DNA of 64,000 bases from Streptomyces umbrinus. GTDB taxonomy: Bacteria; Actinomycetota; Actinomycetes; Streptomycetales; Streptomycetaceae. The notes beneath the pieces are model-generated. The model was not told the DNA's origin and made no database searches. It was given only the letters and a program-made list of their open reading frames with translations. Made by a program: the position numbers and the translations under genes. Of this stretch, positions 36,059 through 58,793 are shown piece after piece (within the stretch, counting starts at the first letter, position 1; every line of letters starts with the position of its first letter). The DNA lies in contig NZ_JAUSZI010000002.1 of NCBI RefSeq assembly GCF_030817415.1, forward strand, positions 4,650,001 through 4,714,000, given 5' to 3'.

Positions 36059-36172
36059 TTTGACATCCTCCGTCCCGCAGTAGGGGACGGATTCCAGCCC
36101 TGACGGGCTGAGGTTCACGGGCGCTCGATCACTCTCGTGATGTCACCCCTCCGGCGTGTCCCGCCGCGACGC
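36059..36172 (-). mobile_element. solo right-end relic of a TnpB-type IS200/IS605 element
   Basis: Bases 36059-36130 align with the right end of the intact element at 50418-50488. Shared: TTTGACATCCTCC, a GTCCC/GGGAC-type hairpin, GGATTCCA, a second CAGCCC/GGGCTG hairpin, and TGAGGTTCACGG. Further on, CCCTCCGGC and GCCGCGACG are also shared, with the tnpB sequence between them deleted. It lies 16 bp upstream of birA. An unrelated CGCGTTG-ATCGTA-CAACGCG hairpin follows at about 36170-36190. Confidence 0.75.
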
Positions 36173-36364
36173 GTTGATCGTACAACGCGAAGGGGAGGGG
36201 AGTGTGGTAAACGCCGCACTGCCGAACGGTAGGCGCGCCACTACGCTACGGATGAGTAGCCAACCCCCCTTCTGAGCACCACCCAGCAGCGTTCAGCACG
36301 TCCGAAGCACCTCGTGTCACCTCACCCTCACGTCCCCACTGAGCAGGCAGGGAGCCGCATCCCG

Positions 36365-50167: not shown

Positions 50168-50417
50168 GGACCGGACGGATACCCGACGGGGGCCGGGTCC
50201 TACCACCGCGGCCCCCGCCGGACACGCCTGTCAGCAGCCAGGCGTCACAAGCCGTACCTGCTCTTCAAGTGGCGCCAGAAGTCCCGGTACATCCACTTGT
50301 CGAACTCCGTGATCTGAGCGGCGCTGCCCGCCTTCATGAGGAAGCAGCACTGGCCGGTCGGGGTCCAGTCGTAGAAGTCGTCGAGGCCGAAGGTGTGGCC
50401 GACCTCGTGCAGGTAGA

Positions 50418-50488
50418 TTTGACATCCTCCCCCTCTTAAAAGAGGGGGATTCCAACCCGGGTGGGTTGAGGTTCACGGACGTTCGACC
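50418..50488 (-). ncRNA. putative omega RNA (reRNA) 3' scaffold at the element right end
   Basis: TnpB systems make a guide RNA from the 3' end of tnpB through the right end. Here two stable hairpins overlap the tnpB stop (50436). Transcription leftward would append host sequence as guide, beginning about TCTACCTGCACGAGGTCGGC, i.e. the interrupted protease gene. The 5' boundary cannot be set by eye. Confidence 0.5.
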
Positions 50489-51722
50489 GCTGTGTGGGCG
50501 GTGTCGTCCCTCCGGCACCGGCTGAGCTCCGGGGGCGGGGAATGCCGCCCTGTCCTGCCGCGACGTTGGTTGCTGCGTTGGTGTCCGCGTTGCAGGTGAA
50601 ACCGCAGGAGGAGCAACAGAATTCGGCTTGGCTCTTGCGCGAGTTCTTGTCGATCCATCCGCAGGCGCTGCATCGCAGGCTGGTGTAAGGGGCGGGGACG
50701 TCTTCGACCCGGCCCAGGGCCTTGTGCTCGGTGCGCTGGCGGAGCAGGCCCCAGCCCTGGGCGAGGATGACCCGGTTCAGGCCGCTCTTCTGCCGCACGT
50801 TCCTGCCAGGCTCCTGGACGGTGCCTTTCGCCGAGCGGGTCATGTTCCTGATGTTGAGCTTCTCGAACCGGATCACGTCGTAGGTGCGGGAGAGCATCGT
50901 GCTGTTCTTCTCGCACCAGTCCTTGCGGCGGTCCGCTTCGCGGGCCTTGAGCCGTGCGACGGCGGCGTATCCGGCGGCCTTCCGCTCGCTGCCCCTGGGT
51001 GCACGAGCGGCGCGGCGCTGGTGCTTGCGGACCTGGGCAGCTTCCCTGACGGTGAGCTGCGGGCAGTTCAGTTTCCTGCCGTCCGACAGTGCGGCGGTGA
51101 TCGTCACGCCCCTGTCGATGCCGATGACTTCGCCGGTGCCGGGGGCGGGGACGGGGGCGGGGATGACCGCGAAGGCGATGTGCCACTGGCCGTTGCGCCA
51201 GGTGACGCGGAAAGTCTTCGCGGTGGGCAGGTCGCCTCGGGTGAGGCGGAAGCGGACCCAGCCGCAGCCGGGTACCTTCACCTGCGCCCAGTGCCGGTTC
51301 AGCTTCTGCACCACGACGGAGCGGCCCATGACCTGCTTGCTCTTGGCGTTGAGCTTCGGTGACCCGTCCGCCTGGAGCTCCGGGACGCGGTCGGTGCCGA
51401 TGACCCGGAAGCCGTTGTGCACGAACTTCTTGCGCCATGTCGGCTCGCCGAACCCGGATGCGAAGCGGGCGGCCTTGGCCTTGTTGAAGTCCTTGAGTGC
51501 CTGCTGCTGGACGTCAGCGTTCCCGGCGCGCAGCCATTCGTTGTCGTGCCGGGCCTCGGTGAGCTGGCGGCACTGTTCCGCGAAGCCGGGGGCGGCCTTG
51601 CGGCCCCTGTACCAGTGCGAGTGCTGCTCGACGGCCAGGTTCCACACGTACCGGGCGTGCGCGCAGTGTTCGAGCATCTGCTCTTCCTGCGCACGCGTCG
51701 GGTACATACGAAATCTGGACAT
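50436..51722 (-). CDS. tnpB: RNA-guided endonuclease TnpB family protein
   Basis: 428 aa, full length for the family. The N-terminal OrfB helix-turn-helix segment is RFRMYPTRAQEEQMLEHCAH. The RuvC-like site is complete: Asp203 in VIGIDRGV, Glu287 in RFEKLNIRNM, Asp380 in NADTNAATN. A zinc ribbon lies before the last (CSACGW at 351 and CCSSCGF at 370-373). The nuclease therefore looks catalytically intact. The last residues (VREPQPTRVGIPLF) are translated from the right-end hairpins. The start is ATG 51722. Confidence 0.93.
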   Translation of the reverse strand: MSRFRMYPTRAQEEQMLEHCAHARYVWNLAVEQHSHWYRGRKAAPGFAEQCRQLTEARHDNEWLRAGNADVQQQALKDFNKAKAARFASGFGEPTWRKKFVHNGFRVIGTDRVPELQADGSPKLNAKSKQVMGRSVVVQKLNRHWAQVKVPGCGWVRFRLTRGDLPTAKTFRVTWRNGQWHIAFAVIPAPVPAPGTGEVIGIDRGVTITAALSDGRKLNCPQLTVREAAQVRKHQRRAARAPRGSERKAAGYAAVARLKAREADRRKDWCEKNSTMLSRTYDVIRFEKLNIRNMTRSAKGTVQEPGRNVRQKSGLNRVILAQGWGLLRQRTEHKALGRVEDVPAPYTSLRCSACGWIDKNSRKSQAEFCCSSCGFTCNADTNAATNVAAGQGGIPRPRSSAGAGGTTPPTQRSNVREPQPTRVGIPLF

Positions 51723-51750
51723 GGCCCCATCCTAGGGCCAGAATTGATGC
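51723..51750. promoter_or_regulatory. 28-bp divergent spacer between tnpB and RHH gene
   Basis: Contains CCTAGG and, extending into the start, TTGAT-GCATG-ATCAA (51744-51758). Such a short shared spacer with a palindrome suggests autoregulation by the RHH protein and shared or leaderless transcription. Confidence 0.4.
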
Positions 51751-51903
51751 ATGATCAAGCTGAATCTTCGACTTCCCGATGACCTGTACGCCAGGACCAA
51801 GGCACTTGCCGCCGCAGACGACCGCTCCCTCAACTCATGGCTGGTGTCGCTCGTGCGGCGTGCGGTGGAGGAAGGTGAACGCCGTTCCGCCCAGAAGGCG
51901 TAA
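51751..51903 (+). CDS. ribbon-helix-helix (Arc/HicB-like) DNA-binding protein
   Basis: 50-aa protein. MIKLNLRLPDDLYARTKALA gives the beta-strand and helix A of an RHH fold, then DDRSLNSWLVSLVRRAVEEG gives the second helix. It resembles HicB-type antitoxin C-terminal domains or Arc family proteins. It lies inside the IS element, divergent from tnpB, and is probably its regulator; no toxin partner is seen. Too short for most gene finders. Confidence 0.8.
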   Translation: MIKLNLRLPDDLYARTKALAAADDRSLNSWLVSLVRRAVEEGERRSAQKA

Positions 51904-52415
51904 CGACTTCTCCTGCCCCGCTACGCGGGAACCGGGAGTCACCCCCGGCCTGAAGGCCGGGGCACCCTCCGGTTCCCAGGTGGATGTTCTCCTGCGACAG
52001 AGCGCCCGTGAAGTACTCCTGGCCGACGCGCTGGCCCCAGTCGCCGCCGGCGCCGCCCTGGAAGTCCTTGGTGAGCCAGAGGGACTGGTCGTAGTGGCGG
52101 GCCGCGCCGCCCGGACAGCGGGAGTAGTTGCGGGTTCCACACGTCGGCGGCCTTCGCCGGGGACGCCGACGTGAGGGGCGAGGCGACCAACGCGACCAGC
52201 GCGGCGAGAACGGTGACCAGACGCGCCAAGTGTCTGTGCGCGGTGAACTCCCTTGGTGGGGGACGGGATTTCACCCTCAGGTCGCCGCCGACTCCCGCGA
52301 AGGTTGCCGGTCGGGCATGACCGACTTCGGCCGCGCGCAGGCGACTTCGGCCGTACACGAGCGGCATGAGCCGCGCGGACCCGTCAGTTGCACGGGCCGC
52401 GCGCGCTCGCTCACC

Positions 52416-57865: not shown

Positions 57866-58793
57866 GAAGCCCAAGAACACCGAGAAGCCCAAGAGCGCCG
57901 AAAAGGCGGAGCAGCAGCGCCTGAGCGTCTTCAAGACCTACAAGCTGTACGTCGGGGGCAAGTTCCCCCGCAGCGAGAGCGGCCGGGTGTACGAGGTGAC
58001 GGACTCGAAGGGCGAGTGGCTGGCCAACGCGCCGCTGTCCTCCCGCAAGGACGCCCGTGACGCGGTCGTCGCCGCCCGCAAGGCCTTCGGCGGCTGGTCC
58101 GGCGCGACCGCGTACAACCGCGGCCAGGTCCTCTACCGCGTCGCGGAGATGCTGGAGGGCCGCAGGGACCAGTTCGTACGGGAGGTCGCGGACTCGGAAG
58201 GACTCTCGAAGTCCAAGGCCGCGGGGGTCGTCGACGCGGCGATCGACCGCTGGGTCTGGTACGCGGGCTGGACCGACAAGATCGCCCAGGTCGTGGGCGG
58301 CGGCAACCCGGTCGCGGGCCCGTACTTCAACCTCTCCACCCCCGAGCCGACGGGTGTGGTGACGGTCCTGGCCCCCCAGGAGTCGTCGTTCCTCGGTCTG
58401 GTCTCGGTGATCGCCCCGGTGATCGCGACCGGCAACACGGTGATCGTGGTCGCGAGCGAGAGGTCCCCGCTCCCGGCGCTGTCGCTGGGCGAGGTGCTGG
58501 CCACCTCCGACGTTCCGGGCGGGGTCGTCAACATCCTCTCCGGAAAGACGGCGGAGATCGCGACCCCGCTGGCCGCGCACCAGGACGTCAACGCGATCGA
58601 CCTCGCGGGCGCGGACGACGTACTCGCGAAGGAACTGGAGGTCGCGGCCGCGGACAACCTCAAGCGGGTCGTCCGTCCACAGGCTGTGGATTACTTTGCG
58701 GCACCGGGCATCGAGCGCCTCACCGCCTTCCTCGAAACGAAGACGGTCTGGCACCCCACGGGCGCACTGGGCGCCTCCGGCTCGTCGTACTGA
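57858..58793 (+). CDS. truncated aldehyde dehydrogenase-like protein lacking the catalytic Cys domain
   Basis: 311 aa. The N-terminal Lys/Glu-rich segment (KPKNTEKPKSAEKAEQQ) precedes an ALDH NAD-binding half (FKTYKLYVGGKFPRSESGR, VVTVLAPQESSFLGLVSVIAP, GNTVIVVASERSPLPA, DVNAIDLAGADD). The expected catalytic Glu and Cys blocks are missing, and the chain ends in a 60-residue helical tail. A genuine short protein seems more likely than a broken one: the reading frame is clean and coupled to the full ALDH. It may be a non-catalytic partner subunit. Confidence 0.85.
   Translation: MSEKPKNTEKPKSAEKAEQQRLSVFKTYKLYVGGKFPRSESGRVYEVTDSKGEWLANAPLSSRKDARDAVVAARKAFGGWSGATAYNRGQVLYRVAEMLEGRRDQFVREVADSEGLSKSKAAGVVDAAIDRWVWYAGWTDKIAQVVGGGNPVAGPYFNLSTPEPTGVVTVLAPQESSFLGLVSVIAPVIATGNTVIVVASERSPLPALSLGEVLATSDVPGGVVNILSGKTAEIATPLAAHQDVNAIDLAGADDVLAKELEVAAADNLKRVVRPQAVDYFAAPGIERLTAFLETKTVWHPTGALGASGSSY

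Follow-up and report, generated by a model that had tools for sequence, protein, structure and literature searches.

How can an IS200/IS605 element that encodes its own DNA-cutting enzyme, and no transposase to move it, prevent that enzyme from harming its host, and why are so many tnpB copies found without tnpA? Both questions are raised by a locus in Streptomyces umbrinus, within a stretch of 64,000 nucleotides (contig NZ_JAUSZI010000002.1, positions 4,650,001 to 4,714,000; here ‘the window’), in which a tnpB gene interrupts a metalloprotease gene and a small gene for a ribbon-helix-helix (RHH) protein is divergently oriented beside it. A conserved repressor would offer a testable answer for one group of such elements.

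Ends of the element and its interrupted host gene

The features that define the insertion are as follows.
50419..51979, minus strand: whole element, 1561 bp, IS200/IS605-type without tnpA; ends from uninterrupted orthologues
51980..51983, minus strand: CCAC target or TAM-like motif, directly 5' of the left end; from orthologue comparison
51943..51962, minus strand: left-end hairpin, arms 8 bp, loop 4 nt; a similar hairpin occurs in related left ends
50245..50418, minus strand: 3' fragment of the metalloprotease pseudogene; from the sequence and the genus search
51980..52241, minus strand: 5' fragment of the metalloprotease pseudogene; outer limit from the preliminary description, deletion scar near 52130/52131

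TnpB lies within the protease gene. The 3' part of that gene reads YLHEVGHTFGLDDFYDW... and, used as a query against 150 genomes of the genus, matched 24, namely the genome itself and 23 others. The insertion site reads [C/G]CA[C/T]-ATC-TAY in 17 of these 23, with variants in L064, L065 and L066; the remaining three (L062, L063 and L068) fail to align at this point. Of the 20 uninterrupted relatives that align, 13 encode the peptide NIHIYLHEV, and the pre-insertion text is ...AACATCCAC joined directly to ATCTACCTG..., the text of the uninterrupted relatives thus placing the element at 50419-51979. In the preliminary description the ends had been set at 50416-51983, which is off by 3 and 4 bp and would remove that much of the protease gene; its restored junction, ENI-YLHEVGH, differs from that of all 20 alignable relatives, and its reconstruction to within 2 bp fails. 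Literal excision of 50416-51983 joins ...GAACAT to TACCTG..., out of frame.

The tetranucleotide 5' of the insertion point is CCAC in 14 of the 20 alignable orthologues, CCAT in five and GCAC in one. The empty-site comparison shows the element directly after CCAC with no target-site duplication, and the two clean empty sites in the window (the second is described below) indicate CCAC as the target motif. Among the matches listed in the TnpB survey, related copies have CCAC a short way ahead of the left-end motif in 19 of the 26 cases where that motif could be recognised, a count that leaves aside 12 further related copies without a recognisable motif and includes seven misses, in three of which (L077, L104 and L194) the motif called by the script looks misplaced. 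With its subterminal hairpins and its insertion 3' of a short fixed motif without duplication, the element is, as judged from its sequence, a transposase-less IS1341-type IS200/IS605 element in a metalloprotease pseudogene.

A second lesion is present in the protease, an out-of-frame deletion of about 416 bp relative to relatives, with its scar at 52130-52131. Eleven of the 23 relatives were compared for its size, nine of them in the alignment. Against seven of the 11 (L047, L048, L053, L054, L057, L058 and L059), 416 bp are missing in the window, the first match stopping at 931 and the second beginning at what corresponds to 1346; the match to L046 ends at 928, giving about 419 bp, and the upstream matches of L049, L051 and L055 are shorter, so that the size is not readable from them. 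The start methionine of L049 and L057, the two relatives with printed frames, corresponds to alanine in the window. The gene thus appears to have been broken twice or more. The preliminary description had proposed that the element entered the protease gene recently, and that the gene was otherwise whole and could be rebuilt at the coordinates given there. The insertion is real and clean, and to that extent the proposal was right; but the gene has a separate frameshifting deletion and the 20 alignable relatives read differently at the junction, so that one recent event in a gene otherwise whole does not account for the locus, and the proposal as a whole can be practically set aside.

TnpB, its guide RNA and copies without a nuclease gene

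The nuclease, its RNA and a short relative elsewhere in the window are located as follows.
50436..51722, minus strand: tnpB, 428 aa; D203/E287/D380 and zinc ribbon intact
50419..50543, minus strand: omegaRNA/reRNA scaffold that extends to the right end; 148.1 bits with covariance model R1
50399..50418, minus strand: predicted guide, first 20 nt past the right end; position by analogy with ISDra2 (PMC8612924, in excerpt)
36060..36203, minus strand: TnpB-less element of the same omegaRNA family, 144 bp; R1 79.5 bits; upstream of birA
36204..36207, minus strand: CCAC motif before the 144-bp element, read directly 5' of it

The TnpB reading frame passes the Pfam cut-offs for the TNB, OrfB_IS605 and HTH domains and matches the NCBIfam guided_TnpB model at 195 bits; 13 of its 18 named relatives are from Streptomyces. 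Its best solved chain is 9j09 (E 4e-26), with the ISDra2 TnpB (8bf8) at E 7e-16. As the preliminary description had held, the three RuvC acids and the zinc ribbon that are typical of IS1341-type TnpB proteins are intact: D203, E287 and D380 lie in the expected motifs and fall on acidic residues of 9j09 and of the AI-designed nuclease 9yyg in both printed alignments. From these residues we infer that the enzyme may be active, which is the sense in which it was earlier called apparently active. Assignment as a TldR, that is, a nuclease-dead TnpB, was rejected because all three acids are present. The genome contains three TnpB copies of this close family (the window copy, L002 and L003). Since L002 carries stop codons and the L003 TnpB lacks the stretch holding the third RuvC aspartate, the window copy is the only intact-looking one. 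L003 (C2:6788132 of the same genome) has an RHH gene, and its TnpB is possibly nuclease-dead.

The open reading frames of the element comprise tnpB and the RHH gene, and tnpA is absent, again as first described. The genome contains at least four Y1 transposase genes and one more in two pieces; none with matching ends was found in it, a scan for the right-end motif at L005 and L010-L014 giving one poor match, at L010, so that the search for a matching TnpA proposed in the preliminary description came back empty. Among L159-L209 (hits to R1, to TnpB and related hits), a TnpA match was found only in the distant archaeal L209. Without its own TnpA, the element would presumably be mobilised by a Y1 transposase supplied in trans, in agreement with the earlier suggestion that it depends on a transposase elsewhere.

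The window scaffold was a training sequence of R1, and its match to the model is therefore by construction. Support for the RNA comes from the common fold of 17 right-end regions, in which 97.3% of cells are paired and two-sided changes occur at 10 of 37 pairs; four of five covariation measures beat all 500 shuffles, and the fifth (further pair types) was reached by 224. This structure and covariation point to a guide RNA that overlaps both the 3' end of tnpB and the right end, as in IS1341-type elements. The predicted guide spans codons of the protease zinc site, and its first 12 nt are kept within one mismatch in 16 of the 23 fetched relatives, exactly in eight. At L102 the right-end sequence GATGTCAA, together with its hairpin arm, occurs twice in tandem. 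A search of the window at Rfam gathering thresholds and a tRNA scan returned nothing.

R1 matches in the genome (E 0.01) are the window element, L002, L003, 36060-36203, L004 and L164, the last being weak (33 bits) and beside a distant TnpB; strict filters were used in the R1 search of the genus. A match at 58528-58617 was taken as chance on account of its weakness (E 0.086). No TnpB match was found in the loci of 36060-36203 and L004. Scaffold copies at L004 (1501-1631) and L169 (1501-1633) have no TnpB match in the fetched locus and have indistinct left ends.

The 144-bp copy lies just ahead of birA, which encodes a biotin ligase (birA_ligase, 135.9 bits), and the uninterrupted site of the copy in relatives reads ...ACCAC followed directly by ACCTAGGGTGG...; the empty site is recognisable in 18 of 29 fetched relatives, three of which are identical over the first 12 nt. 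It is too short for a transposase, bears palindromes, lacks a target duplication and has a clean empty site, which are features of PATE-like elements. Its predicted guide covers conserved birA upstream text and the start codon. For either predicted guide, no CCAC-flanked copy exists in the genome within two mismatches; at this threshold, the only occurrence is the right junction of the guide's own element, with TCAA replacing CCAC. Upstream of birA in L212 (genome G026), a different insertion of about 100 bp, ending TTCAA, occupies the same CCAC site; it is either a degraded relative or a separate event at this target.

A ribbon-helix-helix gene in the place of tnpA

Between the tnpB start and the left end lie two further features.
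51751..51903, plus strand: RHH (Mnt/Arc-like) gene, 50 aa, divergent from tnpB; Pfam Arc and HicB
51723..51750, no strand: candidate divergent promoter/operator, 28 bp, containing GGCCC-N7-GGGCC

The RHH gene, which was absent from the preliminary description, occupies the position where tnpA sits in other elements. The protein matches profiles of the Arc/Mnt/CopG kind (PF03869, 21.8 bits for a cut-off of 20.4; PF05534, 22.2 for a cut-off of 21), a margin of about one bit, and scores below the NCBIfam cut-offs; one designed helical protein aside, its best solved match is the phage P22 repressor Mnt (1mnt), which is weak (E 0.14). With merely 50 codons and so narrow a margin, a spurious reading frame has to be considered. 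Against this, pN is well below pS in most pairs, as for the window gene and L195 (0.042 and 0.384) and for L016 and L192 (0.031 and 0.63), the gene recurs in a class-wide profile search, and a homologue is annotated by NCBI; a spurious frame was rejected on these grounds and is hardly credible. Higher pN/pS ratios are seen in the class with the KFTLR residues (L200 and L070, pN 0.226, pS 0.193), and the comparisons show purifying selection on the RHH gene in most cases, not uniformly.

In an RHH search of 150 genomes of the genus, 84 matched at E 0.001, and 30 loci were fetched. Seven of these adjoin TnpB (L015-L020 and L023), the six best hits included; the other 23, two of which score better than L023, have no match to the TnpB queries. 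A profile search across the class (246 genomes) found RHH matches at 25 places, spread over 20 genomes. At each of the 12 with the best scores (E 6e-12 or lower), two of them from the S. umbrinus genome itself, RHH is divergent to TnpB, the TnpB match being partial in L247, L249 and L251, and the RHH genes of L263 and L269 are likewise divergent to TnpB; the remaining 11 (E 1e-8 or weaker) fall within open reading frames of 103-217 aa, and TnpB is not matched there. These 25 loci and the fetched genus RHH loci yielded no TnpA. The TnpB-linked hits span two further family codes, f17 and f18. Eight plasmid records contain an RHH match, and of the five that were opened L240, L242 and L244 are TnpB-RHH pairs, that of L240 being annotated by NCBI as a YlcI/YnfO protein adjoining TnpB, and L241 and L243 have the RHH match and no such pair. 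Phage records gave no RHH match.

The converse survey, starting from TnpB, covered 101 distinct places among the matches listed, after seven duplicate loci (L015, L045, L069, L072, L074, L005 and L083) were dropped; L016, L020 and L023 entered it from the RHH search, and their RHH genes are therefore not independent counts, and L007 and L008 entered it from a DNA search. A place was scored as having TnpA if one TnpA query matched within the fetched stretch. Among the matches listed, 27 of the 101 places have a TnpB at least 66% identical to that of the window; a divergent RHH gene accompanies 14 of these, nine with an intact reading frame (L073, L081, L099, L100 and L106 being decayed or partial), and TnpA none. 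Of the 74 distant places listed, 30 have a TnpA match and three an RHH gene, the three being those fetched through the RHH search. RHH and TnpA were found together at none of the 101 places listed. As 13 of the 27 close places listed have no detectable RHH gene, the gene is dispensable. In L075, L076, L078-L080, L102 and L105, which lack it, other, shared upstream stretches (such as GGTCACTC...GTGA or GGTCGCTCGTTCGGGTGAGC) occupy its place.

The RHH gene and tnpB have not always travelled together. L016 and L192 share RHH proteins that are 95% identical and TnpBs that are 28% identical, and L003 and L192 show the reverse (RHH 30%, TnpB 77%). On a quick tree of 115 TnpBs (those of the 130 loci with at least 300 aa), the presence of RHH needs 13 changes, at least seven of them forced by well-supported branches; since the set includes loci found through RHH, its clustering on the tree is descriptive. 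The genus searches and the tree place RHH in three deep lineages of TnpB, in no case together with TnpA, and in the lineage of L016, L020, L023 and L240 RHH-bearing and TnpA-bearing elements are closely related. In these comparisons the RHH gene behaves as a mobile module exchanged among TnpB lineages.

Two other roles for the RHH gene must be weighed. It might be a passenger, the relic of an antitoxin or phage repressor that controls its own expression alone and is irrelevant to TnpB. RHH domains occur widely in phage repressors. They are also frequent in antitoxins (PMC8987985, in excerpt), and the 13 close TnpBs listed without RHH and the uneven constraint on the gene fit such a relic. No toxin gene lies beside it here, however, and its association with TnpB in three deep lineages and two further family codes, together with a promoter layout fixed relative to the start codon of tnpB (below), makes a passenger unlikely. 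A type II toxin-antitoxin pair as such was rejected, because no toxin of a known family is adjacent and the element holds only tnpB beside RHH. Alternatively, RHH might have replaced tnpA as a transposition helper that binds the ends or recruits a host or foreign transposase, comparable to the RHH accessory proteins of relaxosomes (PMC6514445, in excerpt). Its occupation of the tnpA position, the failure of RHH and TnpA to co-occur at the 101 places listed, and the close relationship of RHH- and TnpA-bearing elements within one TnpB lineage are what such a helper would lead one to expect. But the symmetric sites are located in the divergent spacer, and at least five RHH-less members (L075, L076, L079, L080 and L102) have the same type of left-end hairpin and the CCAC flank, and we regard a helper as quite improbable.

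The divergent spacer and comparison with known systems

The spacers between RHH and tnpB were compared in a set of 20 (17-45 bp, mostly 28) that includes the nearly identical L192 and L193. In almost all of them a -10-like box precedes each start codon at a fixed distance: TANNNT is found at exactly 6 nt from the tnpB start in 18 of the 20, as compared with 12 of 1090 at other offsets, and NANNNT at the same distance from the RHH start in 19 of the 20, as compared with 75 of 1090. The exceptions are L023, with the tnpB box shifted by one base, L203 (TGGAAT) and, on the RHH side, L070 (CATAAC). Within a locus, the hexamers preceding the two start codons share 3.79 of 6 positions, where shuffled pairs share 2.90 (p 0.00015, 19 loci). 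In the window spacer the inverted repeat GGCCC-N7-GGGCC is not significant alone (p 0.20), and most spacer palindromes taken one by one are not (5 of 18 below 0.05); that of L018 has 11-bp arms (p 0.0002), and Fisher's method over 12 distinct spacers gives 3.6e-5, these p values being optimistic and the tests not independent, because the spacers are related sequences. The spacers of L077, L001 and L003/L070 measure 17, 28 and 39 bp, steps of exactly 11 bp, about one helical turn. From the constant -10 spacing and the agreement of half-sites within loci, rather than from single palindromes, we infer a shared leaderless divergent promoter that would be repressed by RHH.

We consider it fairly probable that the locus is a two-gene unit in an IS1341-type element, which pairs TnpB and its guide RNA with a divergent RHH protein repressing both genes. 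The 28-bp spacer would offer symmetric half-sites to RHH dimers; bound there, on or beside the two leaderless -10 boxes, the dimers would repress both genes, keeping TnpB low in an established host and releasing it when the element enters a naive cell, where TnpB would cut CCAC-flanked empty sites and repair would copy the element back. The window TnpB may also use the guide RNAs of TnpB-less copies, among them the 144-bp element, which lies at a distance of 14 kb. The broader proposition seems to us evenly balanced, namely that the locus represents an undescribed TnpB class of actinomycetes, in which an Mnt-like repressor replaces the transposase and gates the nuclease through a shared leaderless divergent promoter of 17-45 bp, the module is exchanged between lineages, and one intact TnpB serves the two TnpB-less guide-RNA copies of its genome. 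If true, RHH would be a natural off-switch for compact RNA-guided nucleases.

Several known systems resemble parts of this unit. Mnt and Arc of phage P22 control a compact divergent promoter and share the RHH fold of about 40 residues; the partner of the window protein is instead an RNA-guided nuclease, and the sequence match is weak (E 0.14, as above). TldRs, which are TnpB-derived RNA-guided repressors, likewise couple a TnpB derivative to transcriptional control; by contrast, the window TnpB keeps its three catalytic acids, and regulation would come from a separate protein. Standalone omegaRNAs in IscB genomes are guide-RNA loci without a nuclease gene, served in trans, and are in this respect like the TnpB-less copies, which differ in belonging to the TnpB family and in forming a minimal mobile element with an empty site in relatives.

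An RHH-TnpB pair was not found in the literature consulted, mostly non-subscription and available in excerpt (PMC8303175, PMC8987985, PMC3119063, PMC8612924, PMC13092281, PMC6006769, PMC9956272 and PMC11647585), which is not proof of novelty. In ISDra2 of Deinococcus radiodurans, as in the window element, TnpB has the RuvC acids, insertion is 3' of a fixed motif without duplication, and the guide RNA consists of the right end and about 16 nt of flank (PMC8612924, in excerpt); the window element differs in having CCAC in place of TTGAT, no tnpA, and RHH in the tnpA position. The IS1341-type tnpB-only elements and PATEs of haloarchaea also include tnpB without tnpA; the excerpted text of PMC3119063 describes no RHH gene beside tnpB, its mention of CopG concerning small plasmids. 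The PATEs of Haloquadratum (same excerpt) are, like the 144-bp element, very short and palindrome-bearing and cause no duplication, whereas the 144-bp element keeps a guide-RNA scaffold.
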